Shown: positions 5,541 to 32,318 of the stretch, in pieces
Position numbering within the stretch: the stretch's first letter is position 1
How the letters are laid out: the number at the start of each line of letters is the position of its first letter
NCBI RefSeq assembly: GCF_900104965.1
Contig: NZ_LT629757.1
Location: forward strand, 3,472,001 to 3,536,000
Source: Nocardioides scoriae
GTDB taxonomy: Bacteria > Actinomycetota > Actinomycetes > Propionibacteriales > Nocardioidaceae
Direction of reading: 5' to 3'
DNA length: 64,000 nucleotides
Made by a program: the position numbers and the translations under genes
The notes under the pieces: generated by a model
What the model was told of the DNA's origin: nothing
Databases searched by the model: none
The model's input: only the letters and a program-made list of their open reading frames with translations

Positions 5541-5550
5541 GGCGGCGTCC

Positions 5551-7224
<1,674 letters not shown>

Positions 7225-7246
7225 CAGGGTCCCTCGCGGTGTCACA

Positions 7247-7358: not shown

Positions 7359-8777
7359 TCAGGAGACGGTGACGCCCTTGCGGCGGCGCAGCCACCCGCG
7401 TCGGGCGGGCTCCTCGGTCTGGGGGCCGTAGCCGTAGCCGTAGCCGTACCCGTAGCCGTAGCTGCCCCCGCGGTTGCTGCGGACCATGTTGAGCACCACG
7501 CCCAGCGGGTGCGACCCCACCGACCGGAGCCGCTCGACCGCGCCGGCCACCTGGTCCTTGGTCGTCGATCCGTGCCTCACGATGAGGACCGCGCCGTCCG
7601 TCTGGGCGGCCATCAGGGCGGCGTCGGTGACCGGGAGGAGGGGAGGGGCGTCGATGATGACGGTGTCCCAGCGGTCGCGTGCCTCGCCCAGCAGCTCCTG
7701 CATGGCGTGGGACTGAAGGAGCTCGGCGGGGTTGGGGGGGATCCGCCCGGCCGTGAGGACGTCGAGCCCCGACTGGACGTGCTGCTGGACGGCGTTCTTG
7801 AGGTCCTCCATGCCCACCAGGACGGTCGTCAGGCCGACGCTGGGCTCCAGTCCCAGCACCCGGGCGATCTGGGGCCGGCGCAGGTCGCCGTCGACGAGCA
7901 GCACGTTCTGACCTGCGCTGGAGAGCGCGATCGCGATGTTCACGGCCGTGGTGGACTTGCCCTCGCTGGGGACCGAGCTGGTGATGACGAACGACTTGGA
8001 GCGGTTGTCCACGTCGACGAAGGACAGGTTGGTCCGGAGCACGCGGAAGGCCTCGGCGCGGGGGGCGTGGGACGGCAGCGAGCTGATCAGCGGGTCGCGC
8101 GCCACGTCGTTGTCGAAGGCCAGCACGGAGAGCAGCGGCGTGTCCTTCAGCCCGGGCACGTCCTCGATCCGCTTGACCGAGGTGTCCAGCACCTCGCGGA
8201 GCACGGCCAGGCCCAGCCCGAGGAGCAGCCCGAGCACGAGGCCGAGGCCGAGGTTGCGCGTGGGCTGCGGCGACACCGGCGCGGTCGGCAGGCGCGGCGG
8301 GTCGACGATCGTGGCCTTGAGGAGCGGGTTGTCGCGGCCCGGAGGCGTCTCGAGCTCGGCGACGAAGTCCTGCAGCTGGGAGACCACGCCGTCGCTGATC
8401 CGCTGGGCCTGGACCGGGCTGGGGTCGGTCACGTCGATCTTGAGGATGATCGTGTCCGGCACCACGGACGCCGTGATCTTCCCGGCCAGCGCCGCCGCGC
8501 TCAGGTCGAGGTCGAGGTCGTCGATGACGCGCTGCGACAGCTCGAGCCCCGTGATGAGGTCGGCGTACGACGCGACGCGCTGCTGGGAGAACAGGCCGCC
8601 CTGGTAGGCGTCCGAGGAGTTGCTGGGGCTCGTCGAGATGAAGACGCGGCTCGTGGAGGAGTACTGCTTCGTGGTGTTGACGGTGATGACCGCGGCGATG
8701 GCGGTCGTCGCCAGCAGGGTCCCCAGGATGAGGAGCCAGCGCCGACGGGCGATGCGGAGGTAGTCGCGAAGCTCCAC
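7359..8777 (-). CDS. polysaccharide chain-length/BY-type tyrosine autokinase
   Basis: Membrane co-polymerase fused to a bacterial tyrosine kinase, which controls length and export of capsule or exopolysaccharide. With GTG 8777 as start (about 472 residues; no better-placed start gives the MELRDYLRIARRRW onset of Wzz domains), residues 1-200 are a Wzz domain with transmembrane helices at about 14-33 and 176-193. The kinase follows: Walker A SSVPSEGKST (267-276), Walker A' VLLVDGDLR (292-300) and Walker B VIIDAPPL (373-380). The C-terminus has six tyrosines alternating with glycine (440-450), the autophosphorylation cluster. The longer frame to 9014 overlaps the divergent gene and is not used. 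A low-molecular-weight tyrosine phosphatase, the usual counter-enzyme, is at 43640. Confidence 0.88.
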   Translation of the reverse strand: MELRDYLRIARRRWLLILGTLLATTAIAAVITVNTTKQYSSTSRVFISTSPSNSSDAYQGGLFSQQRVASYADLITGLELSQRVIDDLDLDLSAAALAGKITASVVPDTIILKIDVTDPSPVQAQRISDGVVSQLQDFVAELETPPGRDNPLLKATIVDPPRLPTAPVSPQPTRNLGLGLVLGLLLGLGLAVLREVLDTSVKRIEDVPGLKDTPLLSVLAFDNDVARDPLISSLPSHAPRAEAFRVLRTNLSFVDVDNRSKSFVITSSVPSEGKSTTAVNIAIALSSAGQNVLLVDGDLRRPQIARVLGLEPSVGLTTVLVGMEDLKNAVQQHVQSGLDVLTAGRIPPNPAELLQSHAMQELLGEARDRWDTVIIDAPPLLPVTDAALMAAQTDGAVLIVRHGSTTKDQVAGAVERLRSVGSHPLGVVLNMVRSNRGGSYGYGYGYGYGYGPQTEEPARRGWLRRRKGVTVS

Positions 8778-8812
8778 GAGGGTCCCTGTCGTCGGCGAGC
8801 AGAACAGCCGCC

Positions 8813-8818
8813 ACCCTA
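8813..8818 (-). promoter_or_regulatory. -10 element TAGGGT for the tyrosine autokinase
   Basis: TAGGGT on the minus strand would start transcription about 30 bases before GTG 8777, leaving room for an AGGGA ribosome site. The divergent cupin gene has TACCCT at 8905-8910 on the plus strand. Confidence 0.4.
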
Positions 8819-8958
8819 GACGACCGCGATGCCGGATTAGTCCAGGCTCGTCGGCCTCGTCACACGCCATCCCCGTACCGGCTCCGCGAGGTCCCGGCCC
8901 GTCGTACCCTCTTTCGAGAGCCGGCGTGCGGCGAGTCGAGAGCGAGCGGAGCAGCAAG

Positions 8959-9309
8959 GTGTCGTTGGAGTCCGAAGACCGACCGTGGGGGTCCTGGCAC
9001 GTCATCGACGTCAACCCCGGCTACAAGATCAAGCGGATCCACGTGAACCCCGGTCACCGGCTCTCGCTGCAGACCCACGAGCACCGCTCGGAGCACTGGG
9101 TGGTCGTCTTCGGCGTCGCGACCTGCGAGATCGACGGCGAGACCGTCATCGCGGGCCCGGGCCACTCGGTCGACGTGCCCCTGGGGGCCAAGCACCGCCT
9201 CGGCAACGAGGGCAAGGAGGAGCTCGTGATCGTCGAGGTCCAGCACGGTGCCTACACCGGTGAGGACGACATCTGCCGTCACGAGGACGACTTCGGCCGC
9301 GTGGGCTGA
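8959..9309 (+). CDS. phosphomannose isomerase type II C-terminal-like cupin (copy 1)
   Basis: Single-domain cupin of 116 residues resembling the C-terminal part of type II mannose-6-phosphate isomerase/GDP-mannose pyrophosphorylase. The metal-site motif QTHEHRSEHW and RPWGSWHVID at the N-terminus are clear. GTG 8959 is chosen because GGAG lies 7 bases before it; the frame is open to 8926. It is about two-thirds identical by eye to the convergent cupin at 9375-9764, and the two genes share a terminator. A role in mannose-phosphate or nucleotide-sugar supply for the polysaccharide locus fits the context, but no pyrophosphorylase domain is attached. Confidence 0.75.
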   Translation: MSLESEDRPWGSWHVIDVNPGYKIKRIHVNPGHRLSLQTHEHRSEHWVVVFGVATCEIDGETVIAGPGHSVDVPLGAKHRLGNEGKEELVIVEVQHGAYTGEDDICRHEDDFGRVG

Positions 9310-9374: not shown

Positions 9375-9764
9375 CTACCGCCCGAAGTCGTCCTCCAGGC
9401 GGCAGATGTCGTCCTCGCCCGTGTAGCTGCCGAGCTGGACCTCGATGATGACGAGGAGCTCCTGGCCCTGGTTGGCCAGGCGGTGCCGCTCGCCGAGGGC
9501 CACGTCGACCGAGCCGCCGGCCGCGACCTGACGGGTGGTGTCGCCGACGACGGCCGTGGCCACGCCCCGGACGACGACCCAGTGCTCGGAGCGGTGCTCG
9601 TGGGTCTGCAGGGACAGGCGACGGCCGGGCTCGACCTCGATGCGCTTGACCTTGTAGCCCTCGCGCTCGTCCACCACGTGCCAGGAGCCCCACGGGCGGA
9701 CCTCGGAGGGCAGCAGGGCGGCATCGGGCACGGCGTACGTCGTGGTGTCGGTGGTGCTGGTCAT
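9375..9764 (-). CDS. phosphomannose isomerase type II C-terminal-like cupin (copy 2)
   Basis: Cupin of 129 residues, paralogue of the gene at 8959-9309. It keeps RPWGSWHVVD, QTHEHRSEHWVVV and the C-terminal YTGEDDICRLEDDFGR that is almost identical in the two copies. A 20-residue Thr/Pro-rich N-terminal extension is unique to this copy. It starts 28 bases after the stop of the GT2 gene on the same strand, so both are likely cotranscribed. This links the cupin to glycan synthesis. Confidence 0.75.
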   Translation of the reverse strand: MTSTTDTTTYAVPDAALLPSEVRPWGSWHVVDEREGYKVKRIEVEPGRRLSLQTHEHRSEHWVVVRGVATAVVGDTTRQVAAGGSVDVALGERHRLANQGQELLVIIEVQLGSYTGEDDICRLEDDFGR

Positions 9765-9792: not shown

Positions 9793-10815
9793 TCAGGCGA
9801 TCTCGGCGCGGGCCTGCGGCACCCGCACCTCGTTGAGCGGGGTGGGGCTGAGGCGCAGCGCCGGGCGGTTGTCGCGCACGGGCGCCTGGCGCAGGTAGGT
9901 GAGCCGGCTGAGCTCGTGGCGCGACTTGCGGATCCCGTCCAGGACCATGCCGGCGATCACCGCCAGGCACGACATCAGCGCGAGCACCGCGACTGCGACC
10001 AGCGTGGGCACGCGCGGGACGTAGCTGGTGGCGAGGTACTCGACGAGCACCGGGAGGGCCAGGCCCGTGGCGAGGAGCGTCGAGAGCAGCGCCAGCGCCC
10101 CGTAGTAGCCGAGGGGCCGCTCGTGGCGGGCCAGGTTGAGGATGACGCTGAGGATCTTCCAGCCGTCGCGGTAGGTGCGCAGCTTGGACTCGCTGCCCTC
10201 CGCCCGGTCCTTGAAGTCGACCGCCTCGGTGGCCGCTGGGATCCGGAGGGCGAGGGAGTGGATGGTCAGCTCGGTCTCGATCTCGAACTCCCGCGAGACG
10301 GCGGGGAAGCTCTTGACGAACCGGCGCGAGAACACGCGGTAGCCGCTGAGCATGTCCCCGAGGCTGTCGCCGAAGATCGACGACGCGATGCCGTTGAGGG
10401 CACGGTTGCCGGTGGCGTGGGCCGGGCGGTAGGCGCTGGTGCCGGGCACGCCCTCGACCTCGCGACGGACGCCGACGACGTGGTCGAGGTTCTCGTCGAC
10501 GAGGCGCTTGATGAGGCGTGGGGCCGCCTCCGGGTCGTAGGTGTCGTCGCCGTCGATCAGCAGGTAGATGTCCGCGTCGATGTCCGCGAAGGCGCGGCGC
10601 ACGACGTTGCCCTTGCCCTTCAGCGGCTCGTGGCACACGACGGCGCCGGCGTCCGCTGCGCGGCGGGCCGTGGCGTCGGTGCTGTTGTTGTCGTAGACGA
10701 AGACGGTCATGCCGGGGACGGCGGCCTGGAGGTCGCGCACGACCTTGGAGACGGCAATCTCCTCGTTGTAGCAGGGCACGATCGCAGCGATGCGGTACTG
10801 GTGGGCCAGAGACAT
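9793..10815 (-). CDS. family 2 glycosyltransferase (polyprenyl-phosphate type)
   Basis: GT2 enzyme of 340 residues. The N-terminus has IAAIVPCYNEE, the nucleotide-sugar site DNNSTD and the metal-binding DGDDTYD; about residues 245-310 hold two transmembrane helices. This layout (soluble GT-A domain plus two C-terminal helices) is that of dolichol/undecaprenyl-phosphate sugar transferases, so it probably loads a sugar on a lipid carrier at the inner face of the membrane. ATG 10815 follows GCGGGAAAAA. It heads a two-gene unit with the cupin at 9375-9764. Confidence 0.8.
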   Translation of the reverse strand: MSLAHQYRIAAIVPCYNEEIAVSKVVRDLQAAVPGMTVFVYDNNSTDATARRAADAGAVVCHEPLKGKGNVVRRAFADIDADIYLLIDGDDTYDPEAAPRLIKRLVDENLDHVVGVRREVEGVPGTSAYRPAHATGNRALNGIASSIFGDSLGDMLSGYRVFSRRFVKSFPAVSREFEIETELTIHSLALRIPAATEAVDFKDRAEGSESKLRTYRDGWKILSVILNLARHERPLGYYGALALLSTLLATGLALPVLVEYLATSYVPRVPTLVAVAVLALMSCLAVIAGMVLDGIRKSRHELSRLTYLRQAPVRDNRPALRLSPTPLNEVRVPQARAEIA

Positions 10816-11304: not shown

Positions 11305-11799
11305 GTGACCTCACCGTCCACCGCCGGTCCCACCCGGGCCCACCGCGCCCGCCGGCCGCCGCCGACCCTGGTCGTGGCAGCCGTCGTCGCCGTCGTCGTG
11401 GCCCTGGTCGGCTTCCTGCTGCCTCCCGTGGGCCGCCAGCTCGGGCTGTCGCTGTCGAGGCAGCCCGGGACCTGGACCGCCCTCTACTTCACCGGGGCCG
11501 GCTCTTCCTCCGGAGCGGCCGGGTGCAGCGTCGCCGCGGGCGAGGTGACCACCCGCTTCACCCTGGTGAGCCACGAGGGCGCTGCTCGCGAGGTCGACTA
11601 CCGGGTGGTGGTGCGTCCGGCGGCTGACGTCGGTGCGGCCGACGTGGTCCGCGAGGGCACCCGCGCGGTGGCCTCCGGCAAGACCGCCACGGTGTCGACC
11701 TCGGTGCCCACGGCCTCTCCCGGCGACCAGCAGGTCGTGGTCACGCTGCCGGACACCGGCGCGCAGATCACCGCGCGCTGCCAGAGGGGCGAGTCGTGA
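11305..11799 (+). CDS. small membrane-anchored protein, first gene of the polysaccharide operon
   Basis: Unrecognised protein of 164 residues. GTG 11305 is chosen because AGGAG lies 6 bases upstream; the frame from 11242 has no such site. After a basic start, residues about 20-42 form one transmembrane helix (LVVAAVVAVVVALVGFLL), followed by an extracytoplasmic beta-rich domain with two cysteines (AGCSVAAGE and ARCQ). Its stop overlaps the next start (GTGA), so it is translationally coupled to the acyltransferase gene. A structural or scaffolding role in polymer modification or export is inferred only from context. Confidence 0.6.
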   Translation: MTSPSTAGPTRAHRARRPPPTLVVAAVVAVVVALVGFLLPPVGRQLGLSLSRQPGTWTALYFTGAGSSSGAAGCSVAAGEVTTRFTLVSHEGAAREVDYRVVVRPAADVGAADVVREGTRAVASGKTATVSTSVPTASPGDQQVVVTLPDTGAQITARCQRGES

Positions 11800-13058
11800 G
11801 CACCCTGACCCAGGTCGACCGCTTCGTCCCGCTCGCGCCCCTCGACGCCGGCTGGTTCGGTCTGGAGAGCGTGCGCGTCCTGGGCGGGCTCGACGTCCCG
11901 TCGGTCGAGCAGCTGCGCCGGTCGGTGCGCGTGCTCCACGACTCCGACGACCTCGTCGCCCGCCACTACGACATGGACAACCTGCGCTACCGGGTGGCTC
12001 GGCACGACGAGCGGGACGACCGCTGTGCGGCCATGGTGGTGCGCTCCCGCGCGGATCGTCTCGAGCTCCAGGACGCCTTCGACGAGGCGGCGGTGCCGCT
12101 GGGAGCGCTGCCCTTCCGGCTCGTGGTGGGGCGTGGCTGGTGCTCGATCCGGATCTCGCACGCCTTCGGCGACGGCTGGTCGTGCCTCACGCTGCTCGCC
12201 CACCTGCTGGACCAGGCCAACAGCCGCTCGGTGCTTCCCCTGCCGTGGGACGTGGTCGGCCCGCGGCGCCAGCAGCTGCTCAGCACCGGGGGGCTCGTGC
12301 GCCGGCCCGGCGCCGTGCTCACCGCGGCCCGCCACCGTCGCGCCTTCAGCGGTGGCGTCTACGAACCCTCGGAGCTGCGCACCAGTCACCACCGGTCCTC
12401 GACCGTCGTGCACACCAGCGCCCCCGGGTTCGTGCCGGCCCTGGGCCGCGAGCGCGACGCGCTGTGGCCGGGCGCCTCGCTCGCGGGGGTCGTCCTGGTC
12501 CGGGTGCGGGCAGCGCTGGGCCGGCACCTGACGACACCCGAGCCGGGGGTCGAGATGCTGTTCGACGTGCGCCGGGACTCGGCGTCCACCCGCCGCGCCT
12601 TCGGCAACTGGGCGGCCGGCATCACGGTGCGGCCCGAGGACGACGACGATCCGGTCTCGGTGACCTCCGAGATCCGACGCATCCGGGAGTCCGGGGTGCC
12701 GCACGTGGCCGCGGCCGCGAGCCGGCTGCGTGCCCGCAACGCCCGGACCGGTGGGCGCCAGGTGCTGACGCCCGGCGACCGACCCCACCTGACGCTGTCC
12801 TACCTGAACCGCCACGGCCCGCTCGCGCGGCTCCCGTGGGATCCCGCGTCGACGCCGGTCGTGGGCCTGGCGGCGGTGCCGAACGGCCTCGGGTCGGTCT
12901 CGGTGTCGGCCCACGAGACGGGCGACCGCCTCAGCCTCAGCCTCTGCTTCTACGACCACGTCTGGTCGCGCGACGCCGTGGCGGCCGCCGTGGCCGAGGC
13001 CCTGGACCCGACGCCGGCAGGACCGTGTCCCGCGACCCGCCAGGAGGCGACCCCATGA
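11796..13058 (+). CDS. HxxxD-type acyltransferase / condensation-domain-like protein
   Basis: Protein of 420 residues resembling stand-alone condensation-superfamily acyltransferases (PapA, wax-ester synthase and NRPS condensation folds). The catalytic motif is SHAFGDGWS, with His122 and Asp126 in HxxxDG spacing. FGNWAAGITV near residue 270 fits the structural latch motif of the family, and there is no carrier-protein domain. It overlaps both neighbours by 4 bases, inside an operon with a GT-C-like protein, a flippase and a GT4. The likely job is acyl transfer onto a lipid-linked sugar or the finished glycan; donor and acceptor cannot be told from sequence. Confidence 0.65.
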   Translation: MSTLTQVDRFVPLAPLDAGWFGLESVRVLGGLDVPSVEQLRRSVRVLHDSDDLVARHYDMDNLRYRVARHDERDDRCAAMVVRSRADRLELQDAFDEAAVPLGALPFRLVVGRGWCSIRISHAFGDGWSCLTLLAHLLDQANSRSVLPLPWDVVGPRRQQLLSTGGLVRRPGAVLTAARHRRAFSGGVYEPSELRTSHHRSSTVVHTSAPGFVPALGRERDALWPGASLAGVVLVRVRAALGRHLTTPEPGVEMLFDVRRDSASTRRAFGNWAAGITVRPEDDDDPVSVTSEIRRIRESGVPHVAAAASRLRARNARTGGRQVLTPGDRPHLTLSYLNRHGPLARLPWDPASTPVVGLAAVPNGLGSVSVSAHETGDRLSLSLCFYDHVWSRDAVAAAVAEALDPTPAGPCPATRQEATP

Positions 13059-15433
13059 CGCTCCAGGACACCACCGTCGCGCCCGCAGGACCGGCTCCGG
13101 CCACGGACCCGCTGCGGGGCGACCTCGCGCTGGGTGCCACCGTCCTCGTCGCCGGCGGGGTGCTGCTGCTCGACGTCCCCGTCGCGGTCCGGTGCCTGCT
13201 GACCGTGCTGCTCGCGGTCGTGGTGCCGGTCGCGGCGCTGCTCGGATCGCCCGCGCGGCGCACGCCCCCCAGCCTGGCGGAGGTGGTCACCGCGTGCGGA
13301 GGGTCGGTGCTGCTCCTGCTCCTGGTCGGCCTCGCCCTCAACACCCTGCTGCCCGTGGTCGGGATCGACCGGGCGCTGGCGACCGCCCCCGTCGTGGTGG
13401 GGGTGGTGCTGCTCGACCTGGGCCTCGTGGCCTGGCGGCTGCGCCAGGGGGCCGACCTCGCGCGCCCGCTGGCGGCCGCGGTGCGCAGCGCCGTGCTCTG
13501 GCGGGCCGGGACGGCCGAGGCCCTGGCCCTCGCGTCGCTGGTCATCTGCATCGCCGGCGCGGTGCGGCTCAACAACGGTGCGAGCAGTGCCGTGGCCGTG
13601 GTGGGCCACGCGCTGGTGGCCGCGACCTTCGTGGCGCTGCTGCTGCGCCCGGCGAGGTCCCGGCTCTCCGACGGGCTGGCGCTCTACCTCGCGGCAGCCG
13701 CGCTGCTGCTCGGCACCTCCGTCCGCGGCTGGTACGTCATCGGCCACGACATCCAGCGCGAGTTCCTCGTCTACCTCCTGGCCCAGGGCCAGGACAGGTG
13801 GCAGATGTCCAGCCTCGACAGCGCCTACAACGCCTGCCTGAGCGTCAGCGTCCTGCCCACGGTCGTGGCCAACCTGACCGGCCTCGGGGGAGTGGTGGTC
13901 TTCAAGGTCGTCCTGCAGCTGGCCTTCGCGCTGGTCCCCGTCGCCGTCTACGCCGCCTCGAGGGGCTGGGCGGGACGACGGGTGGCGCTGCTCGGCGCGC
14001 TCGTGCTCGTCACCTTCCCGACCTTCCACAACGACATGCCCTACCTGGTGCGCCAGGAGGTGGCGTTCCTCTTCCTCGCGCTCGCGCTGCTCACCGCGGC
14101 GCGCCACGACCTGCGCCGGGGCCTCCAGCTGGCCCTGGTCGTCGGCTTCGGCGTCGGGGTGGTGCTCTCCCACTACTCGACGACCTACCTGCTGCTGCTC
14201 GGGCTCGTCATGGGCTCGGCCGGCTTCCACGTGTCCCGCCACCTGGCCTCGCGGCGTACGCCGGGGCAGCGGGTGCGCGAGCGGCCCGTGCTGCTCGCCC
14301 CGGTGGTCGTGGTCGCGGTCGGCCTCGCCACCTGGACCTGGGTCAGCCCGGTCACGCAGTCCGGCGGCCACCTCGAGGAGACCGTCACCAGCACGGTGTC
14401 GGCGGTGGTCAGCGGGTCGTCGGGACCGGGGTCCTCGGACCTGTCCTACGGCCTGTTCGCTGGCCGCCAGGCCAGTCCCGACGAGCGGCTCGCGATGTTC
14501 GCGGCCGAGACGCTCGACGAGCGCCGGGCCGAGTCCGGTGCGTGGCTGCTCGACGACGCCGAGGCAGCCGCCCTGACCCCCGCCACGGTCGACATCCGCG
14601 ACGACGCGCTCACCCCCGTCGGCCGGGTGCTCGACGCCGTCGGGCTCGACGTCACCCGGGGCAACGCGCTGCTCCGTCTCGGCGCCGCGCTGCTGCTCCA
14701 GGTGCTGCTCCTCGCCGGGGTGGCGCTGCTCGCCCTCGCGCGGTTCTCGACCCCCCGCCGACGTCCGGGCCTGGCCCGGTGGGCCGTCCCGACCGAGACC
14801 CTGTGGCTGGTGCTGGGCGCCATCGCCGCCCTCGGGCTGGTGGTGGTCGTGCCCGGCCTGTCCGCGTCGTACGGCGTGCTGCGGGCGTTCCAGCAGGGCC
14901 TGCTGGTCTTCGCCCCGGTGATCGTGGTCGGGGCGGTCGGCGTCCTCGGACTGCTGCTGGCCCGGCTCCGGACCGGACCGATGGCCGTCGCGGGAGCCGG
15001 CTTCGTCGGGCTCTTCCTGGTCCTCACCGGGGTCGTCTCGACCACGACCGGAGGGGCGCCGGGCCAGCTGGCGCTGTCCAACTCGGGGCAGTACTACGAC
15101 CTCTACTACCTCACCGACGCGGAGGCCGCCGGCACCCGCTGGCTCGCGCGAGCGGCCCGCAGCGCCCCGGTCCAGTCCGAGGTGGTGACCGACAAGGTCG
15201 CGGTGGGTCGGCTGCGCTCCGCCACGGGCGGGGAGATCGAGGTGAGCGGGGAGTTCTTCCCCACCCAGCTGCGGCGCGACACCTTCGTGTTCCTCGGCGC
15301 CCAGACGGTCGAGCACGAGCAGGCCACCATCTTCTACACCGGCAACCTCATCACCTACCGCTACCCGGTGGAGCTGCTCGAGCAGCGGCTCGACCTCGTC
15401 TACAGCAACCCCGACGCCGAGGTGTTCCGATGA
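13055..15433 (+). CDS. large polytopic membrane protein, GT-C/polymerase-like
   Basis: Integral membrane protein of 792 residues, beginning at ATG 13055 behind AGGAGG. Hydrophobic helices run through about residues 25-490, and a further cluster lies near 550-680. A conserved-looking loop, WYVIGHDIQREF near residue 230, precedes the central helices, and the soluble C-terminal region is about 100 residues. The arrangement recalls GT-C glycosyltransferases and DUF2206 membrane proteins, so it may polymerise or extend the polysaccharide on the outer face. It could instead be a Wzy-like polymerase. It overlaps the flippase gene by ATGA. Confidence 0.6.
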   Translation: MTLQDTTVAPAGPAPATDPLRGDLALGATVLVAGGVLLLDVPVAVRCLLTVLLAVVVPVAALLGSPARRTPPSLAEVVTACGGSVLLLLLVGLALNTLLPVVGIDRALATAPVVVGVVLLDLGLVAWRLRQGADLARPLAAAVRSAVLWRAGTAEALALASLVICIAGAVRLNNGASSAVAVVGHALVAATFVALLLRPARSRLSDGLALYLAAAALLLGTSVRGWYVIGHDIQREFLVYLLAQGQDRWQMSSLDSAYNACLSVSVLPTVVANLTGLGGVVVFKVVLQLAFALVPVAVYAASRGWAGRRVALLGALVLVTFPTFHNDMPYLVRQEVAFLFLALALLTAARHDLRRGLQLALVVGFGVGVVLSHYSTTYLLLLGLVMGSAGFHVSRHLASRRTPGQRVRERPVLLAPVVVVAVGLATWTWVSPVTQSGGHLEETVTSTVSAVVSGSSGPGSSDLSYGLFAGRQASPDERLAMFAAETLDERRAESGAWLLDDAEAAALTPATVDIRDDALTPVGRVLDAVGLDVTRGNALLRLGAALLLQVLLLAGVALLALARFSTPRRRPGLARWAVPTETLWLVLGAIAALGLVVVVPGLSASYGVLRAFQQGLLVFAPVIVVGAVGVLGLLLARLRTGPMAVAGAGFVGLFLVLTGVVSTTTGGAPGQLALSNSGQYYDLYYLTDAEAAGTRWLARAARSAPVQSEVVTDKVAVGRLRSATGGEIEVSGEFFPTQLRRDTFVFLGAQTVEHEQATIFYTGNLITYRYPVELLEQRLDLVYSNPDAEVFR

Positions 15434-16746
15434 CCGCGCTGCGCCACCCCGTCGCGTTCGTCCGCGGCGCGCTCCGGGACCCGCTGCTGGCGAACTCCTG
15501 GCTGATGCTGGCCACGACCGTGCTGATGGCGGCGGCCGGCGGCGTCTTCTGGGTGATCGCGGCGAGGATCGCGACCCCCCGCGACGTGGGGCTCGCGTCC
15601 TCGCTGGTCACCGCGGGCGAGGCGCTGGCCGTGCTGGCGCAGCTCGGGCTCAACATCTCGATGGTGCGCGTCCTGCAGCGCAGCGACCGGCGCTCGGCCG
15701 ACGTGCTGATGGCGGTCGCGGTGGTGAGCGCAGCCGGGGTGCTCGCCGCGCTGGCGTACGTCGCGCTGCTCCCGCGCGTCGCCCCCGACCTGGCCGCGCT
15801 GATCTCGTGGCCCTGGACGGCCCTGCTCTTCGCCGTCCTGGTGGCCGGAGCCGGTGTCAACCAGCTCACCGACGGCCTGTTCCTGGCCATCGACCGGGTC
15901 TCGCGCAACCTGGTCATCAGCGGCGTCCTGATGGGCCTGGTGAAGTGCGCGCTGCCCTTCGTGCTGGTCGGCAGCGGCGCGCTGGGCCTCTACAACTCGG
16001 TCGGCATCGCCACCCTGGTCGCCGCGGTGCTCAGCGTCGCCTCGATCCTGCGCTTCCTGCCCGACCGGACCTGGCAGCTGCCGTCCGCGGCGTTCCGCCA
16101 CTCGCGCGGCTTCGCCCGGGCGGGGTACGTCGCCAACAACCTCTACCTGCTGCCCCAGATGGTCTTCCCGCTGCTCATCATCAACGGCGTCGGGCCGGCC
16201 AGCAGCGCGCACTACTTCGTGGGCTTCCAGATCGTCACGCTGCTCAACTCGGTCGTCTACGCCATCTCCAACTCGATGTACGCCGAGAGCTCGCGACACC
16301 CCGAGCGGGTGACCGCCATCGTGCGGCAGGCCGGTCGCCACATCGCGATCTTCTCCGGCCTGGGCATCGTCGGCCTGCTCGTCCTGAGCCCGCTGCTGCT
16401 GCGGGTCTTCGGGGCGGAGTACGCCGAGAACGGCACCACCACGCTGCGCATCCTCACCCTCGGCACCGTCGGCGTCGCCCTCAACTTCTGGTCGGCGATC
16501 CGGCTGCGCATCGCCCAGCACCAGAGCGCCATGGTCGTGGTGCAGCTCGTCACCACCGTCGCGATGGTGGGCGCTGCCGCGCTGCTGGTGGGGCGCGGCA
16601 TCGAGTTCGTGGCCCTCGCCTGGGGCGGCGGCCACCTGCTGGGCGGCCTGCTCGGCTACACCGTGAGCCGCCGCTTCGCCCCCCTCCGCGACACCGAGCC
16701 CGACCTGCCCGTGACCCAGACGATCCCCCCGGTGGTGGCCCGATGA
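15430..16746 (+). CDS. Wzx-like polysaccharide flippase (MOP superfamily)
   Basis: Integral membrane protein of 438 residues with 12-14 predicted helices. It resembles RfbX/Wzx lipid-linked oligosaccharide flippases: the helix-1 region LMLATTVLMAAAGGVFWVIAARIATPRDVGLAS matches the usual FWxxAAR...xxVG pattern in spirit. It would move the lipid-linked repeat unit across the membrane. ATG 15430 overlaps the upstream stop, and its own stop overlaps the GT4 start. Frames extending far upstream of 15430 are out-of-frame shadows of the previous gene. Confidence 0.82.
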   Translation: MTALRHPVAFVRGALRDPLLANSWLMLATTVLMAAAGGVFWVIAARIATPRDVGLASSLVTAGEALAVLAQLGLNISMVRVLQRSDRRSADVLMAVAVVSAAGVLAALAYVALLPRVAPDLAALISWPWTALLFAVLVAGAGVNQLTDGLFLAIDRVSRNLVISGVLMGLVKCALPFVLVGSGALGLYNSVGIATLVAAVLSVASILRFLPDRTWQLPSAAFRHSRGFARAGYVANNLYLLPQMVFPLLIINGVGPASSAHYFVGFQIVTLLNSVVYAISNSMYAESSRHPERVTAIVRQAGRHIAIFSGLGIVGLLVLSPLLLRVFGAEYAENGTTTLRILTLGTVGVALNFWSAIRLRIAQHQSAMVVVQLVTTVAMVGAAALLVGRGIEFVALAWGGGHLLGGLLGYTVSRRFAPLRDTEPDLPVTQTIPPVVAR

Positions 16747-17903
16747 GCCCGTCCCATCGCCCGATGCGCGTCCTGCTCGCCGCCCCGCGGTTCCCGCCCG
16801 ACGTCGGCGGCCTGGAGTCGTACGCCGGCTGGGTGGCGCGCACCCTGGCCGCCTCGCCGGACCACGACGTCCGGGTGGTCACCAGCCACTCCGGTCGAGG
16901 GCGCCTCGAGGGCGAGGTGGACGGCATCCCGGTCACCCGGCTCGGGTCGTGGGTGACCCTGTCGAACACCCCGGTCAACCCGCTCTGGCTGGCCCAGCTG
17001 CGCGCATTGATCCGTGAGTTCCGCCCCGACGTCGTCAACGTCCACTCGCCGGTCCCCGGCCTCGCCGACGCCATCGTGGCGGTGGCCGGCCCCGTCCCCG
17101 TGGTGATGACCTACCACGCCGGCTCCCTGGTCAAGGGCGAGTCGCGGGCGATCGACGCCGTCCTGCGCACCTACGAGCGCCGGGTGCTGCCGCGCGTCTT
17201 CGACCGCTGTGCCGAGCTGGTCGCGGTCTCCCCGGTGGCGATGACGCACGCGACGGGCCGCGCCACCATGATCACACCCGGGGTCGACACCGACTTCTTC
17301 TCGCCGGACCCGGACGTGGTGCGGGGCCGTCGGATGCTGTTCGTGGGCCGCGTGGAGGCGAGCTCGCGGTGGAAGGGCATCTCCACCCTGATCGAGGCGC
17401 TGGCGCTGGCCGCGCCCCTGGTGCCCGGCATCGGGCTCGACGTGGTGGGCGACGGGGACGACGTGCCCCGGCTGCAGCGCCTCGCCCAGGCGCGGGGCGT
17501 CGCCGACCTGGTGACCTGGCACGGCTCCCTCACCCACACCGAGCTGGTCGGCCTCTACCGCTGCGCCGGCGTCACGGTGCTGCCGTCGCTGACCGAGGCG
17601 GAGTCGTTCGGGATGGCGCTGGTCGAGGCCATGGCCTCGGGCTGCCCCCTGGTGGGCTCCGACGTCGGCGGGATCCCCTTCGTCCTGGCGGACGGCGAGC
17701 ACGGCCTGCTCGTCGACCCCGGCGACGCCGCGAGCCTGGCCGCGGCGGTCGAGCGGGTGCTGCTCGACCCGGACCTGGCCGAGCGGCTGAGCGAGGCGGG
17801 CCGTCGCGCGGCGGTCGAGCGCTGGGACTGGCGCCACCAGTCGGCCGCGACGACCGAGGTGCTCGCCCGAGCCGTCCGGGGTTCGGTCCGCCAGCTGGTC
17901 TGA
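16743..17903 (+). CDS. family 4 glycosyltransferase
   Basis: GT4 (GT-B fold) of 386 residues, the last gene of the five-gene operon. The N-terminal domain has the acceptor-side motif PPDVGGLESY; the C-terminal domain has FVGRVEASSRWKG and the donor motif PSLTEAESFGMALVEAMASG, with the E-x7-E pair typical of retaining GT4 enzymes. It acts in the cytoplasm on lipid-linked or nucleotide-sugar substrates. It ends one base before the stop of the convergent hydrolase gene, and no hairpin terminator is visible between them. Confidence 0.85.
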   Translation: MSPSHRPMRVLLAAPRFPPDVGGLESYAGWVARTLAASPDHDVRVVTSHSGRGRLEGEVDGIPVTRLGSWVTLSNTPVNPLWLAQLRALIREFRPDVVNVHSPVPGLADAIVAVAGPVPVVMTYHAGSLVKGESRAIDAVLRTYERRVLPRVFDRCAELVAVSPVAMTHATGRATMITPGVDTDFFSPDPDVVRGRRMLFVGRVEASSRWKGISTLIEALALAAPLVPGIGLDVVGDGDDVPRLQRLAQARGVADLVTWHGSLTHTELVGLYRCAGVTVLPSLTEAESFGMALVEAMASGCPLVGSDVGGIPFVLADGEHGLLVDPGDAASLAAAVERVLLDPDLAERLSEAGRRAAVERWDWRHQSAATTEVLARAVRGSVRQLV

Positions 17904-17904
17904 C

Positions 17905-19038
17905 TCAGCCCGAGGTGTCGGCCACGGCGCGGCGCACCGCCTCCCAGGCCGGCTTCTGGCTCCCGTCGAGCCGACGCAGCCCGAAGTGGTCCTCGACGGT
18001 CCCGCCCGTCTCGAGGTCGCGCCAGGTGTAGAGCATCAGCGCCCGGACCTGCGGCGCGGCGGCGGCTGCGCGCACCCCGGCCGCCAGGATGCGGGCCTGC
18101 TGGGCCTCGTCGACCGCGCCGGTCGGCGACCCGTCGGTGGAGGCGCCGCCGGTCGGCGCGCCGTACTCCGTCACCCACAGCGCGGACGGGTCGATCCCGG
18201 CCGCGGACATCAGCCCGTCGAGCGCCGGGCCCTGGCGGGTGCTGCGCGTCATCCGCTGCCAGGGCGTCTCCACCGCCGGGTCGGTCGGCGTGCGCGGGTA
18301 GGTGTAGGGGTGGTAGGCGACGCCGTCGAGCCCGCGGCAGGCGCCCCCGGAGCAGGCCACCCGGAGGAAGTCACCGGCGTCGACGACCCCCTCGCGCCGG
18401 TCGTTGGCGGCCAGCCCGCCCATCAGCACCTGGGCGTCGGGGTCGCCCTGCTGGAGGGCGAGGGTCGCGCCGGTGAGCAGCTCGCGGTAGCGCCGGGGGT
18501 CGGGCGCCACCCAGAACAGGTCCAGGTTCGGCTCGTTCCAGATCTCGTACGCCGCGATCCGGCCGCGGTAGCGCTGGGCGACCTCACCGGCGAAGACGGC
18601 GTACGACGCGGCCGACGCCGGCGGGCAGGTGAACGTCGTGCAGCCCGGGTCGCGGACCCACGGGGCGCTCCAGGTCACCACGCCCAGGACGTCGAGGTCG
18701 CGCTGCTGCGCCTCCGCGACCACCCGGTCGAGCGCTGCCCAGTCGTGCTGGTCGGCCGAGACCGGCTGGATGGTGGGCCACGAGACGTCGAGGCGCACCC
18801 AGCGGGCGCCGAGGGCCACCACGTCGTCGAGCGCCGTCGCCAGCTCCGCGGGGGAGGCCCGGGTCAGCCGCTCGCCGAAGGAGACGCCGACCGGGAGTCC
18901 CGGCTCCCGGGCCGATCCGTCGGCTCCCACGGGCGTCCCGGTGCGGGGGCCGAGCACGACGCCGAGCACCAGCGCTGCCGCGAGCAGCGCCAGGGCGCCG
19001 GTCAGCGCCCTCCCGGGGTGGCGGTCGACCGTGGCCAC
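17905..19038 (-). CDS. membrane-anchored clan GH-A-like glycoside hydrolase
   Basis: Protein of 377 residues with an N-terminal transmembrane anchor (about residues 10-30), placing the catalytic domain outside the membrane. The TIM-barrel domain carries both clan GH-A glutamates: the acid/base in YEIWNEPN near residue 170 and the nucleophile in LWVTEYGAP near residue 295. It resembles GH5/GH39-like enzymes. GTG 19038 starts 4 bases after the stop of the GT4 gene on the same strand, so the two are a unit. It could trim or release the polymer made by this locus. Confidence 0.75.
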   Translation of the reverse strand: MATVDRHPGRALTGALALLAAALVLGVVLGPRTGTPVGADGSAREPGLPVGVSFGERLTRASPAELATALDDVVALGARWVRLDVSWPTIQPVSADQHDWAALDRVVAEAQQRDLDVLGVVTWSAPWVRDPGCTTFTCPPASAASYAVFAGEVAQRYRGRIAAYEIWNEPNLDLFWVAPDPRRYRELLTGATLALQQGDPDAQVLMGGLAANDRREGVVDAGDFLRVACSGGACRGLDGVAYHPYTYPRTPTDPAVETPWQRMTRSTRQGPALDGLMSAAGIDPSALWVTEYGAPTGGASTDGSPTGAVDEAQQARILAAGVRAAAAAPQVRALMLYTWRDLETGGTVEDHFGLRRLDGSQKPAWEAVRRAVADTSG

Positions 19039-19042
19039 CCGG

Positions 19043-20191
19043 TCAGAACCGGTAGGCCAGCGCCGCGCTGTCGGCGAGCGCCTCCCAGTCGAAGCGGGCC
19101 GCGGTCGCGAGCGCCTGGGTCCCGAGCTCGTCGCGGCGCTCCAGCGCGCGCCCGATGGCGTCCGAGAGGGACTCGGCGGTGCCGGAGTAGAGCTCGCCGT
19201 TGACACCGGGCTCCACCAGGTGACGGGCGAAGTTGTCGGGGTGGTCGCTGGTGACGACGGGCGTGCCGACCGACATCGCCTCCAGGGCCACCATCCCGAA
19301 GCCCTCCCGCACCGAGGGGAAGACCAGCAGGTCCGCGTCGGAGATGGCCTGCAGGACGTCGTCGTGCTCCTCGAGGAAGGGGGAGAACGTGACGGCCTCG
19401 TGCGCCCCCAGGTCGTCCACGAGGCGCCGCAGGGCGGGCTCCTCGGGGCCCTCGCCGATCACCCGCAGCGTGAGCGGGCTGCCGGCCGTGCGGGACAGGT
19501 GGGTGGCCTCGACGGCGAGGTCGATCTTCTTGTTCTCCAGCAGCCGTCCGACCGAGATCAGCTCGGTGCCGTCGCGCCGAGCGCTCCGGGGCTCGACCGA
19601 GGCGGTGCGGTCGATGCCGTTGGGGATGACGTGGACGTCCACGGCGCCCTCCTCCCCGGCGAGGTGCAGCCGCTCGGCGGTGCCGTCCGAGGCCGCGATG
19701 ATGCGGTGGGGGAGCCGGATGGCGGTGCGCTCGACCCACGCGGCCAGGTGGCCGGGCAGCCCCAGGTAGCGCACCCAGTAGTCGCGGCCCCAGAACTCGT
19801 GCCAGGTCGTCACCATCGGGACCCGGCGCACCGTGGCGACGACGCGGGCCGGCAGCAGCGGCAGGAAGGGGATGGAGTCGACCTCGAGGACGTCGAAGCG
19901 ACGCCACAGCAGGCTGAGGCAGCACACCGCGAAGACCAGCGCCTGGCGCACCGACCGGCGGGTGCCGGAGTAGAGCGGGAGCCGGGGCGAGATCGCCACG
20001 TAGGTGATGCCCTCGCGGACCACGACCGAGGGGCCGTCCCACCACTTCATCGTGTAGACCCGCACGTCGTAGCCGCGCCGGGTGAGGCGGGTCAGCAGCT
20101 CGTGGTGGCGCTTCTCCTTCCCCCCGGTGTTCCACGGGTAGACGGAGTCGGAGACGAACCCGAGGACGGTGCGCGAGGCGGACCTGCTCAT
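19043..20191 (-). CDS. family 4 glycosyltransferase
   Basis: GT4 of 382 residues. The N-terminal motif SVYPWNTGGKEKRHHEL is the acceptor-domain loop. ISVGRLLENKKIDLAVEA and PSVREGFGMVALEAMSVG form the donor site with the E-x7-E pair. ATG 20191 follows the divergent promoter region shared with the GH gene at 20408. It is probably cotranscribed with the downstream anchored hydrolase. It adds one sugar to the lipid-linked repeat unit; the sugar is not predictable. Confidence 0.83.
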   Translation of the reverse strand: MSRSASRTVLGFVSDSVYPWNTGGKEKRHHELLTRLTRRGYDVRVYTMKWWDGPSVVVREGITYVAISPRLPLYSGTRRSVRQALVFAVCCLSLLWRRFDVLEVDSIPFLPLLPARVVATVRRVPMVTTWHEFWGRDYWVRYLGLPGHLAAWVERTAIRLPHRIIAASDGTAERLHLAGEEGAVDVHVIPNGIDRTASVEPRSARRDGTELISVGRLLENKKIDLAVEATHLSRTAGSPLTLRVIGEGPEEPALRRLVDDLGAHEAVTFSPFLEEHDDVLQAISDADLLVFPSVREGFGMVALEAMSVGTPVVTSDHPDNFARHLVEPGVNGELYSGTAESLSDAIGRALERRDELGTQALATAARFDWEALADSAALAYRF

Positions 20192-20407: not shown

Positions 20408-21994
20408 ATGCGCTTCCTCGCGGCCCTTGCCCTGGCCGTCGCCACCACGCCCGTGCTCGTCGTCGGCCAGTCGGCCGGCCCGGTGTCGGCCGCCACCGTG
20501 CCGCTGCCACCCGTCCAGGCCCGGTCGGCGGCGAGCGTGGTGGACGGCTTCGGGGTGGGGGTGCACCTGGCCTACGAGGACACGCCGTACCGCAACACCA
20601 CGGCCGTCGCGAACGCGCTCGCCGCCCTCGGGGTCCGCCACGTGCGCGACGACCTCTTCGTCGGCGACACGACCCAGTACGCCGCGATCCGCACGGTCGC
20701 CGCCAAGGGCATCGACTTCGACCTCATCATGGGCAGCCCGTCCAGCCCCCGTCCGGCGAAGGACTACGTCGCCGCGGTCGCCGGTCAGCTGCCCGGGGTG
20801 GTCTCCTCGCTGGAGGGACCCAACGAGTGGGACCACTTCAGCGGTGGTGGTCCGGCCTGGCCCTCGCAGCTGCGCGCCCGGCAGTCCGCGCTGTACGCCG
20901 CGGCCAAGGCCGACCCCCGGACCCGGTCGCTGCCGGTGCTGGCGCCGTCCCTGGCCTTCGCCAAGAACTACCCGCTGGTGGGCGACCTCTCCGCCATCTC
21001 CGACGTGGCCAACGGCCACCTCTACCCCGGCGGGCGGCCGCCGTCGGCGGACCTGAGCGGCCTGTTCACCAAGCTCCGGACCGTCACCGGTGCCAGCAAG
21101 CCCATCGTCATCACCGAGGCGGGCTACCACAACGCGCTCGCGACCACCGACGGCCACCACCCCGTCCCGGAGTCCGTCCACGCCACCTACCTGCCCCGCC
21201 TGCTGATGGAGCACCTGCGCGGCGGCGCCGCCCGCGTCTACTCCTACGAGCTGGTCGACGAGTTCGCCGACCCGGGCAGGACCAACCCGGAGGCCAACTT
21301 CGGCCTGCTGCGCCGCGACCTCACCCCCAAGCCGGCGTACACCGCGATGCAGCGGCTGCTGGCCGTCTTCCAGGACTCCTCGACGTCCTTCGCCCCGGGG
21401 AGCCTGGCGTACGCCGTGGAGGGCGGTCGCACCGACCTGCGGCAGCTGCTGGTGCAGAAGAGCACGGGCGAGTTCGACCTCGTGCTGTGGCGCGACGTCA
21501 GCGTCTGGGACCCGATCGCCCGCCGGGCGCTCAACCCTGCGCCCTACCGCGTGCAGGTCCGGCTCGGCCAGGCCCGCGCCGGCAGCGTGGTCGCGCCGAC
21601 GAGCGGTGCCACGACGTCCTTCACGGCGACCGACTCCGTGCCGGTCGACCTCGGGGCCGACGTCAGCGTGGTCCGGCTGACCGCACCCGCCGCGGGCGGC
21701 AGCGCGACCGTGGCCCCGACGACCACGGCGGCCCCGGCCCGGTCGGCCAAGGTGTCGGCCCGGGCCGGTCGTGCCTCGGTGCGCGTCTCCTGGCACGCCC
21801 CGACCACCGGCGGTGCGCCGATCCAGGAGTACCGCGTGAGCGCCGGGTCGCGCACCCGCGTGGTCCCCGCGACCACCCGCTCCACCGTCGTGCGAGGCCT
21901 GCCGCGGCGCGCGTGGGTCCGCATCACCGTGCAGGCCCGCAACGACGTCGGCTGGGGCTCGGCGGCCCGCTCGGGCCGCGTCCGCACCCGTTGA
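20408..21994 (+). CDS. secreted glycoside hydrolase-like protein with FnIII domain
   Basis: Exported protein of 528 residues with a cleavable signal peptide (about residues 1-28). The barrel-like domain (about 40-320) has the clan GH-A glutamates in SLEGPNEWDHF and IVITEAGYHN. A beta-sandwich follows, then a C-terminal FnIII-like domain (about 440-528, VRVSWHAPTTGGAPIQEYRV). AATACT ends 6 bases before the ATG, so the mRNA may be leaderless. It is the second hydrolase in the locus and probably acts on extracellular glycan. Its stop abuts the convergent cysN stop within a TTGATCA sequence. Confidence 0.72.
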   Translation: MRFLAALALAVATTPVLVVGQSAGPVSAATVPLPPVQARSAASVVDGFGVGVHLAYEDTPYRNTTAVANALAALGVRHVRDDLFVGDTTQYAAIRTVAAKGIDFDLIMGSPSSPRPAKDYVAAVAGQLPGVVSSLEGPNEWDHFSGGGPAWPSQLRARQSALYAAAKADPRTRSLPVLAPSLAFAKNYPLVGDLSAISDVANGHLYPGGRPPSADLSGLFTKLRTVTGASKPIVITEAGYHNALATTDGHHPVPESVHATYLPRLLMEHLRGGAARVYSYELVDEFADPGRTNPEANFGLLRRDLTPKPAYTAMQRLLAVFQDSSTSFAPGSLAYAVEGGRTDLRQLLVQKSTGEFDLVLWRDVSVWDPIARRALNPAPYRVQVRLGQARAGSVVAPTSGATTSFTATDSVPVDLGADVSVVRLTAPAAGGSATVAPTTTAAPARSAKVSARAGRASVRVSWHAPTTGGAPIQEYRVSAGSRTRVVPATTRSTVVRGLPRRAWVRITVQARNDVGWGSAARSGRVRTR

Positions 21995-23293
21995 TCAGAT
22001 GATCATGCCGGCGCCGACGGTGACGCCGGTGGCCTCGTCGATGAGGATGAACGAGCCCGTGGTGCGGTTCTTCGAGTAGGAGTCGCACAGCAGCGGCACC
22101 GTGGTGCGCAGCTGGACGCGACCGATCTCGTTGAGACCGAGCTCCTTGGTCTCCTGGTCGCGGTGCAGGGTGTTGATGTCGAGGCGGTACTGGATGTCCT
22201 TGACCAGGGCCCGACCGTTGCGGGTCGTGTGCTTGATCGCCAGCTTCTGGCGGGGACGCAGCGGCTCGTTGGTCATCCAGCAGATCATCGCGTCGATGTC
22301 CTGGCTCGGCGTCGGCGCGTTCTTGACGCGGGCGATCATGTCGCCGCGGCTGACGTCGACGTCGTCCTCGAGGCGCACCGTGACCGACATCGGCGGGAAC
22401 GCCTCGTCGATCTCGCGGTCGAACAGGTCGATGCCGGCGATCTTGGAGGTCATGCCGCTGGGCAGCACGACGACCTCGTCGCCGGGCTTGAGGACGCCGC
22501 CGGCCACCTGGCCGGCGTACCCGCGGTAGTCGTGGTACTCGTCGGACTTGGGCCGCACGACGTACTGCACCGGCAGGCGCGCGTCGATGAGGTCCCTGTC
22601 GGAGGCGACGTGGATGTTCTCCAGGTGGTGCATGAGCGAGGAGCCCTGGTACCACGGCATGTGCTCCGAGCGGGTCACCACGTTGTCGCCCTTGAGCGCC
22701 GAGATCGGGATGACCTCGAGGTCGGGGATCGAGAGCTTCGTGGCGAAGGCGGAGAACTCGCGCTGGATCTTGTCGTAGACGCCCTGGTCGTAGTCGACGA
22801 GGTCCATCTTGTTGACGGCCAGCACCAGGTGGGGGACCCGGAGCAGCGACAGGATGACCGCGTGGCGGCGCGACTGCTCGGTCAGGCCCTGGCGGGCGTC
22901 GACCAGCACGAGGCCGAGGTCGGCGGTCGAGGCGCCCGTGACCATGTTGCGGGTGTACTGCACGTGGCCGGGGGTGTCGGCGATGATGAACTTGCGCCGC
23001 GGCGTCGCGAAGTAGCGGTACGCCACGTCGATCGTGATGCCCTGCTCGCGCTCCGAGCGGAGCCCGTCGGTCAGCAGCGCCAGGTCGGTGTAGTCGTAGC
23101 CCTTGGACGCGCTGGTCGCCTCGACGGCCTCGAGCTGGTCGCTGAAGATCGCCTTCGAGTCGAGCAGCAGCCGGCCGATCAGCGTCGACTTGCCGTCGTC
23201 GACCGACCCGGCCGTCGCGAAGCGCAGCAGGTCCATCTGGCCGACGCCGAGGTCCTCGAGGGTGGGCTGGGTGGTGGGGGTCTCGGTGCTCAT
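21995..23293 (-). CDS. cysN: sulfate adenylyltransferase large subunit (GTPase)
   Basis: CysN, the regulatory GTPase subunit of ATP sulfurylase, drives APS formation from ATP and sulfate. At 432 residues it has the GTPase plus two beta-barrel domains and no fused APS kinase. Motifs: GSVDDGKST (P-loop), ADTPGHVQY (G3) and NKMD (G4). ATG 23293 overlaps the cysD stop (ATGA), so the subunits are coupled. It converges with the hydrolase gene with no gap between stops. Confidence 0.95.
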   Translation of the reverse strand: MSTETPTTQPTLEDLGVGQMDLLRFATAGSVDDGKSTLIGRLLLDSKAIFSDQLEAVEATSASKGYDYTDLALLTDGLRSEREQGITIDVAYRYFATPRRKFIIADTPGHVQYTRNMVTGASTADLGLVLVDARQGLTEQSRRHAVILSLLRVPHLVLAVNKMDLVDYDQGVYDKIQREFSAFATKLSIPDLEVIPISALKGDNVVTRSEHMPWYQGSSLMHHLENIHVASDRDLIDARLPVQYVVRPKSDEYHDYRGYAGQVAGGVLKPGDEVVVLPSGMTSKIAGIDLFDREIDEAFPPMSVTVRLEDDVDVSRGDMIARVKNAPTPSQDIDAMICWMTNEPLRPRQKLAIKHTTRNGRALVKDIQYRLDINTLHRDQETKELGLNEIGRVQLRTTVPLLCDSYSKNRTTGSFILIDEATGVTVGAGMII

Positions 23294-24207
23294 CAGAAGT
23301 AGCCCTCCTTCTTGCGGTCCTCCATGGCGGCCTCCGAGAACCGGTCGTCGCCGCGGGTCGCGCCGCGCTCGGTCACCGTGGCGACGGCGACCTCCTCGAT
23401 GATCTTCTCGATCGTGTCGGCCTCGGACTCCACGCAGCCGGTGAGGGTCAGGTCGCCGACGGTGCGGAACCGCACGGTCTTCTCCACGACCTCCTCGCCC
23501 TGCTTCGTGGGGTTGTGCTCGCTCTCCGAGAGCCACATGCCGTCGCGCTGGAAGACGCGCCGCTGGTGGGAGTAGTAGATCGAGGGGATCTCGACCTGCT
23601 CCTGGCCCAGGTAGTGCCAGATGTCGAGCTCGGTCCAGTTGGACAGCGGGAAGATGCGCATGTGCTCGCCGCCGTGGATGCGGCCGTTGTAGAGGCTCCA
23701 CAGCTCGGGCCGCTGCATCTTGGGGTCCCACTGGCCGAAGTCGTCGCGGTGGGAGTAGACGCGCTCCTTGGCGCGGGCCTTCTCCTCGTCGCGTCGGCCG
23801 CCGCCGAACGCGGCCGTGAAGCCGTTCTCCTCGATGGCGTTGAGCAGGGTGCCGATCTGGAGCCGGTTGCGGCTGGTCTTGCCGTCGTCGACCACGACAC
23901 CGTCGGCGATCGCCTGCTCGACGCCGGCGACGATCATCTTCACGCCGAGACGGTCGACCCAGTGGTCGCGGGTCTCGAGGACCTCCGGGAAGTCGTAGCC
24001 CGTGTCGACCTGGAGCATCGGGAAGGGGATCTTCGCCGGGAAGAAGGCCTTCTCCGCCAGCCGCAGCATGACGATGGAGTCCTTGCCGCCGGAGAACATC
24101 AGCACCGGCTTCTCGAACTCGGCGGCGACCTCGCGGAAGATGTGGATCGACTCGGCCTCGAGCTGGTCGAGCTGGCTCAGCCGGTAGTCGGCGTGGGTCT
24201 GGGACAT
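23293..24207 (-). CDS. cysD: sulfate adenylyltransferase small subunit
   Basis: CysD, the catalytic PP-loop subunit of ATP sulfurylase, 304 residues. The PP-loop MFSGGKDSIVML is at about residues 36-47, and the PAPS-reductase-like fold continues through TAAFGGGRRDEEKARAKER. It makes adenosine 5'-phosphosulfate in complex with CysN. A minus-strand -10-like TACGAT at 24246-24251 leaves a leader of about 32 bases, too short for a riboswitch. No APS/PAPS reductase or sulfite reductase gene is beside it, unlike most assimilation operons. Confidence 0.95.
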   Translation of the reverse strand: MSQTHADYRLSQLDQLEAESIHIFREVAAEFEKPVLMFSGGKDSIVMLRLAEKAFFPAKIPFPMLQVDTGYDFPEVLETRDHWVDRLGVKMIVAGVEQAIADGVVVDDGKTSRNRLQIGTLLNAIEENGFTAAFGGGRRDEEKARAKERVYSHRDDFGQWDPKMQRPELWSLYNGRIHGGEHMRIFPLSNWTELDIWHYLGQEQVEIPSIYYSHQRRVFQRDGMWLSESEHNPTKQGEEVVEKTVRFRTVGDLTLTGCVESEADTIEKIIEEVAVATVTERGATRGDDRFSEAAMEDRKKEGYF

Positions 24208-32278: not shown

Positions 32279-32306
32279 CGGGACATCGTGCCAGAGCAGC
32301 CGTCGG

Positions 32307-32312: not shown

Positions 32313-32318
32313 CGCGCC

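Follow-up and report, generated by a model that had tools for sequence, protein, structure and literature searches.

The operon described here, together with its relatives, conserves the position of an acyltransferase gene rather than any one acyltransferase family. Directly 5' of a gene for a DUF2206 membrane protein, which is itself likely to be a GT-C glycosyltransferase, most related clusters carry one of two enzymes of unrelated fold, an indication that acylation forms an inherent part of how the surface glycan or glycolipid is made. Every part of the locus is of a known kind; its interest lies in the way unrelated acyltransferases replace one another in a conserved slot coupled to C, and in the likely assignment of DUF2206 to the GT-C enzymes. 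Within a limited literature search, we found neither a description of the gene set as a whole nor a paper naming DUF2206.

Organization of the operon

The operon lies in the 64,000-nucleotide stretch of DNA analysed here (the window), which belongs to a genome consisting of a single contig of 4.06 Mb. It comprises five plus-strand genes, A to E, spanning 11305-17903 (Table 1), and at every one of the four junctions the neighbouring genes overlap by exactly 4 bp, as GTGA or ATGA. The original prediction of a five-gene operon with 4-base overlaps throughout, in which an HxxxD acyltransferase is encoded alongside a flippase and a GT-C-like protein, was therefore borne out, and B and C fold as named there. 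No Wzy occurs among the five genes, in keeping with its remark that this is not a standard Wzx/Wzy set. Genes A, B, C and D are found in identical order in other genomes at ~25-50% identity, and since this order recurs and the two proteins fold as named, we regard the operon as an arrangement beyond chance.

Table 1. Genes of the operon and its neighbours in the window.
Feature	Coordinates	Strand	Length (aa)	Description
Gene A	11305-11799	+	164	GTG start with GGAG; single-TM anchored protein
Gene B	11796-13058	+	420	HxxxD acyltransferase, CAT/condensation superfamily; HAFGDG at residues 122-127
Gene C	13055-15433	+	792	GT-C-fold membrane glycosyltransferase (DUF2206), likely; Asp232 of GHDIQxE as catalytic candidate; alpha/beta domain at the C terminus
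Gene D	15430-16746	+	438	MOP/Wzx-like flippase; window member sub-threshold
Gene E	16743-17903	+	386	GT4 glycosyltransferase (Pfam)
GT2	9793-10815	-		AglJ-like polyprenyl-phosphate-hexose synthase; divergent from operon; two C-terminal TMs
Glycoside hydrolase	17905-19206	-		GH5/GH39-like; sub-threshold family matches; recurs beside these clusters
Second GT4	19043-20191	-		Joined to the E-type GT4 as one protein in L052, a B-type relative
fn3-domain protein	20408-21994	+		Probably secreted; recurrent neighbour

DUF2206 proteins are likely GT-C glycosyltransferases

Gene C matches DUF2206 (PF09971) with 48.8 bits against a cut-off of 35.6, and a DUF2206 match at E<=0.01 was obtained for all 24 C homologs. 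The protein has at least 13 transmembrane (TM) segments. Sequence searches of the PDB with C or with B, using single or profile queries, yielded chance matches only. When we modelled C from 24 sequences (pLDDT 87.5, pTM 0.90), the best structural matches of the model were all GT-C proteins, namely yeast and human OST, AglB, PglB, PMT, DPY19, ArnT, AftA, AftD and Emb. Z scores to GT-C enzymes ranged from about 10 to 20.6, with the value of 20.6 obtained for STT3 and values of 16-19 for AglB, PglB, ArnT and AftA, and the first unrelated chain followed at a Z of 5.5 or less. Asp232 and Glu236 of the GHDIQxE motif are invariant in 24/24 C sequences and lie ~34 residues past the start of the structurally aligned core. 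We take this position to be that of the acidic site in the first extracytoplasmic loop of GT-C enzymes, judging from the aligned ranges and from the layout of STT3 and not from a residue-level alignment. On the basis of the model, DUF2206 can be given a likely enzymatic assignment, that of a GT-C glycosyltransferase.

B is an HxxxD-superfamily enzyme outside the named families tested

B has no TM segments and carries the catalytic motif HAFGDG, of which HxxxDG is invariant in 4/4 B homologs and also in a distant relative of ~25% identity at locus L087. Its scores against named families fell below their cut-offs, with 20.6 bits for WS_DGAT (PF03007 in Pfam, cut-off 23.6) and 17.5 bits for WS/DGAT TIGR02946 (cut-off 309.95), and a search of its own genome for the condensation domain PF00668 gave matches elsewhere only, below the Pfam cut-off. 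The model of B was built from four sequences and is of low confidence (pLDDT 58), to be read as right in kind and not in detail. It shows a two-lobed CAT-like fold across the full length of the protein. Foldseek matched this model to 208 chains at E<=1e-3, the top matches listed being condensation, epimerization or cyclization domains, plant HCT and WS/DGAT, and in VIA the model aligned with domains of these types, with PapA5 and with E2 acyltransferase cores at Z scores of 11-12. Given these fold matches and the conserved HxxxDG, combined with family scores under cut-off, B is a member of the HxxxD superfamily that falls outside every named family tested. Fold and HxxxDG motif are shared with PapA5 and its relatives, which act in mycobacterial lipids, with WS/DGAT and with NRPS C domains; B differs from them in scoring under the WS/DGAT cut-offs and in giving no PF00668 match, and its operon contains no PKS or NRPS partner.

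The strong divergence of B from all named families, and the presence of a conserved anchored protein, A, encoded directly upstream, would fit a scenario in which B has lost its acyltransferase function, or in which the acyl group goes to a protein (e.g. A) or to a lipid unrelated to the glycan. We consider this very improbable, because HxxxDG and the surrounding fold are kept in all homologs, including the one of ~25% identity, and because comparison of A homologs revealed no invariant cysteine or similar conserved modification site.

B-like genes gave five matches among 337 genomes of the family, four of them in C clusters and the fifth being the L087 relative. The latter is the last gene of an operon that also encodes a 964-aa protein (L087:3972-6866), a GT4 and two GT2s, one of them cellulose-synthase-like. 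The C-terminal part of this 964-aa protein is PMT_2 (GT-C); the N-terminal part received no Pfam call and is a flippase by our own reading.

Two unrelated acyltransferases alternate in the slot 5' of C

Using single-protein queries, we found C in 19 of 342 genomes of the family and in three of the 24 genomes of the genus that were examined, and a scan of genome contigs for C returned two distant C loci only. We compared 24 loci, five of which come from outside the family, with genes called by a codon-bias script. From these, 18 family clusters including that of the window were taken as the core set, the distant L017 being left out. The slot directly 5' of C is occupied by a B homolog in four core clusters (window, L052, L056 and L057), with the homologs from the three relatives being 30-33% identical to window B. 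An LPLAT (lipid-A/PatA-type) of 267-303 aa, unrelated to B, fills the same slot in 13 core clusters, while none of the 18 has both enzymes and one (L058) has neither. All 13 slot LPLATs contain HHGxx[DE]. They scored above the cut-off of Lip_A_acyltrans (PF03279) in L013 and L015 and weakly in the others, and for the L013 and L015 proteins, the two tested, the best NCBIfam match was the phosphatidylinositol mannoside (PIM) acyltransferase PRK07920, at 27.3 against a cut-off of 209. Neither profile nor protein searches detected an LPLAT homolog in the window genome. In 15/17 clusters the gene in the slot runs 1-8 bp into C, and the gaps before C in L016 and L053 may reflect start-codon calls.

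The neighbourhood survey thus qualifies the expectation that the acyltransferase would be conserved with the other four genes: B itself is restricted to 4/18 core clusters, but in 13 others an acyltransferase of unrelated fold stands in its place. With B in four slots and an unrelated LPLAT in 13, it is the acyltransferase position that is conserved and not the enzyme family, and the filling of one slot by unrelated acyltransferases is what points to acylation as a built-in step. The idea of an acylated polysaccharide or glycolipid put forward in the original prediction holds in spirit. Not all DUF2206 clusters would include an acylation step, since no recognised acyltransferase was found in the slot of L058 or of the outside-family loci L010, L011 and L059-L061.

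It could be argued that the slot is a tolerant insertion point, where B and LPLAT act on different molecules as independent decorations and no shared acylation step is implied. Outgroup clusters that do without either enzyme would be consistent with this, as would the wider distribution of the LPLAT family, paralogs of which also occur away from C, including in genomes without C. Most of the paralogs outside the clusters have no adjoining glycan genes recognised by our reference set, and L095 has such neighbours. We nevertheless judge an insertion point to be improbable, as both acyltransferases occupy the same position, are translationally coupled to C and exclude each other (the chance of zero co-occurrence if they were independent is 0.0016, a figure that ignores relatedness), and as B is nearly confined to C clusters. 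A separate observation is that one same-genus genome without C carries three LPLAT paralogs within ~4 kb (L088:7344-11456).

The system is not limited to the five genes

The system extends beyond the five genes: an AglJ-like GT2, encoded outside the coordinates of the original prediction, belongs to it as well, E is mobile or fused, and further genes differ by species. The GT2 has AglJ (TIGR04182) as its best NCBIfam match (E=2.1e-54; 184.9 bits, under the equivalog cut-off of 325). It was recognised near C in 22/24 loci, with the two exceptions, L012 and L062, lying on short contigs, and its identity is 22-29% in loci outside the core family set. The GT2 is thus a regular companion of the cluster, and we include it in the system.

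Gene A encodes one TM segment (residues 21-39) with a presumed extracytoplasmic tail, and comparison with Pfam gave no significant match. By tblastn, A was seen in the loci of 19/24 relatives, with weak or partial matches in L058 and L060. The flippase assignment of D comes from a weak, sub-threshold Polysacc_synt match of the window protein and from Polysacc_synt or Polysacc_synt_3 matches in 11-12 of 21 D homologs. Orthologs of E in relatives show ~47-67% identity; they either take a different position within the cluster or form a single protein with a further GT4. In L052, two GT4 domains that correspond to window E and the second GT4 are fused head to tail (L052:5321-7582); in the window, these are separate genes on opposite strands. 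L056 and L057 contain another GT4 fusion, in which E is matched by the C-terminal half alone.

The window locus looks like a mosaic

The L013 cluster, from the same genus, sits between the same flanks as that of the window, a GCV_T-domain gene (80% identical) and CysN/CysD (92-93%). Inside the cluster, identity drops to 42-47% for C and D, the acyltransferase has a different fold, and L013 additionally contains a glycerophosphotransferase and an AT3 gene. The C tree unites the four B-type clusters with support of 95/93. Under a mixture model with fewer outgroups, support for this grouping was 87/90 and a placement of the window with the LPLAT clade was not rejected (p 0.16); as this alternative stands, we do not claim that B and C travel as one cassette. 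The D and GT2 trees reject the grouping of B-type clusters (p 1.8e-10 and 0.002, respectively), and window GT2 falls within the LPLAT-type clade. With the B-type clusters kept apart in these two trees, the window locus looks like a mosaic. Variable surface-glycan loci are often mosaic.

A possible route to an acylated glycolipid

In kind, the parts of the locus match those of PIM synthesis and of multi-component transmembrane glycosylation systems, and we therefore propose, in a judgement that is evenly poised, that it yields an acylated glycolipid or lipid-linked oligosaccharide by PIM-like logic. Starting from how the genes are ordered and coupled, how B and C fold, their catalytic motifs and the alternation of the two acyltransferases, we infer substrate or acceptor, acyl donor, step order and the roles of A and D as follows. 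On the inner face of the membrane, GT4 enzymes (E and neighbours) would assemble a short lipid-borne glycan. The slot enzyme would then acylate the glycan or the lipid in the cytoplasm, from acyl-CoA or acyl-ACP, with B (HxxxD) performing this step in the window genome and an LPLAT/PatA-type enzyme in most relatives, so that the two would represent alternative solutions to one acylation step. D may flip the acylated intermediate or, alternatively, a sugar donor. The AglJ-like GT2 would supply a polyprenyl-phosphate-sugar, which C would use outside to extend the flipped glycan, and A may serve as a dock for the acceptor or as a helper of C. The L087 locus, in which the B relative shares an operon with the PMT_2/flippase-like protein, counts in favour of this route. 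Counting against it are the clusters whose slot holds no recognised acyltransferase, the low confidence of the B model and the score of the LPLATs far under the PIM acyltransferase cut-off.

In the PIM pathway, PimA/B and PatA act on the inner face and PimE uses polyprenyl-phosphate-mannose, while the flippase is described as uncharacterized (PMC12041525). The likeness lies in GT4s acting on the inner face, an acyltransferase, passage across the membrane and a GT-C enzyme that receives polyprenyl-phosphate-sugar from a separate synthase (PMC12041525), Ppm1 in the PIM case, and it extends to the PatA-type LPLAT used by relatives of the window locus. The differences are that acyltransferase, flippase candidate and GT-C share one operon here; that the window acyltransferase is an HxxxD enzyme and not PatA, PatA-type LPLAT being absent from the window cluster and present in 13 relatives; and that C is a DUF2206 protein with an extra N-terminal membrane part. 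Multi-component transmembrane glycosylation (CsbB/GtcA/YfhO; GacK/GacL) likewise combines a GT-A polyprenyl-phosphate-sugar synthase, a flippase and a GT-C enzyme, and in the S. pyogenes set of GacK and GacL, GacK is a Wzx-type flippase (PMC8035078). Such a set is encountered here at the gene level, as the GT2 with two TMs and the adjacent, conserved D and C; what sets our locus apart is the acyltransferase coupled to the GT-C gene, together with the anchored A and a GT4. There is also a resemblance to archaeal N-glycosylation by AglJ and AglB, as AglJ is the closest NCBIfam family to the GT2 and AglB has the same GT-C fold as C. This resemblance is one of genes and folds, and the GT2 scores below the AglJ equivalog cut-off.

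Nearby genes for PHPT, Wzz and UDP-sugar enzymes make an exopolysaccharide of the Wzx/Wzy type, bearing acyl groups, the main rival. Here, B would attach a short acyl chain to an undecaprenyl-diphosphate repeat unit, D would be the Wzx, C would add a side sugar outside from polyprenyl-phosphate-sugar, and the polymerase would be encoded elsewhere. The window contains two polyprenyl-phosphate hexose-1-phosphate transferases (PHPT; 24365-25909 and 27470-28933), a Wzz-tyrosine-kinase protein (7359-9014), a UDP-Glc dehydrogenase (26143-27459) and an epimerase, and the Wzz-kinase protein and the two PHPTs, which count against the glycolipid route, suit a Wzx-type polysaccharide equally. Sets of GT-A, Wzx-type flippase and GT-C are, moreover, known to decorate cell-wall polysaccharides (PMC8035078), and the genes that accompany LPLAT in its clusters include ones for an AT3 acyltransferase and a TagB/F-like glycerophosphotransferase. 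Against this, the genes scanned near the operon, a part of those in the window, include no Wzy-like protein, and the initiating transferases lie outside the operon. Known LPLAT-family enzymes use long-chain acyl donors and lipid or glycolipid acceptors, a chemistry that suits glycolipids better than repeat-unit acetylation. Weighing these points, we regard the exopolysaccharide as possible but rather doubtful.

Going one step further than the acylated glycolipid itself, the locus could represent an undescribed actinobacterial surface-glycolipid system that pairs a DUF2206 GT-C extender with an interchangeable acyltransferase (two folds, one step), the acyl group being recognised by the flippase or the GT-C enzyme. 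We advance this tentatively, with somewhat more doubt than confidence. If acylation proves obligate, the locus would offer a compact model in which acyltransferase, flippase and GT-C for one acylated glycolipid are genetically linked, and because the slot can hold either of two unrelated acyltransferases, complementation could readily show whether it is the acyl group or the enzyme that matters.

Further genes around the locus

Several neighbours of the operon may have a part in glycan modification. The window encodes CysN, CysD, a 655-aa protein with a C-terminal APS kinase and a TauE-like exporter (30117-31079) within 21995-24207 and 30117-33046, and the 475-aa N-terminal part of the APS-kinase protein matches no Pfam family. 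The presence of the CysN, CysD and APS-kinase genes beside a glycan locus makes PAPS supply possible, hinting at sulfation. The GH5/GH39-like and fn3-domain proteins are both putatively secreted and recur by DUF2206 clusters in several actinobacterial families; they are possibly glycan-trimming enzymes. Two adjacent small cupin genes of the mannose-6-phosphate isomerase C-terminal family (8926-9309 and 9375-9764), in convergent or divergent orientation, are probably the result of a duplication, and further upstream a DUF1501 gene adjoins a DUF1800 gene (4242-7245).
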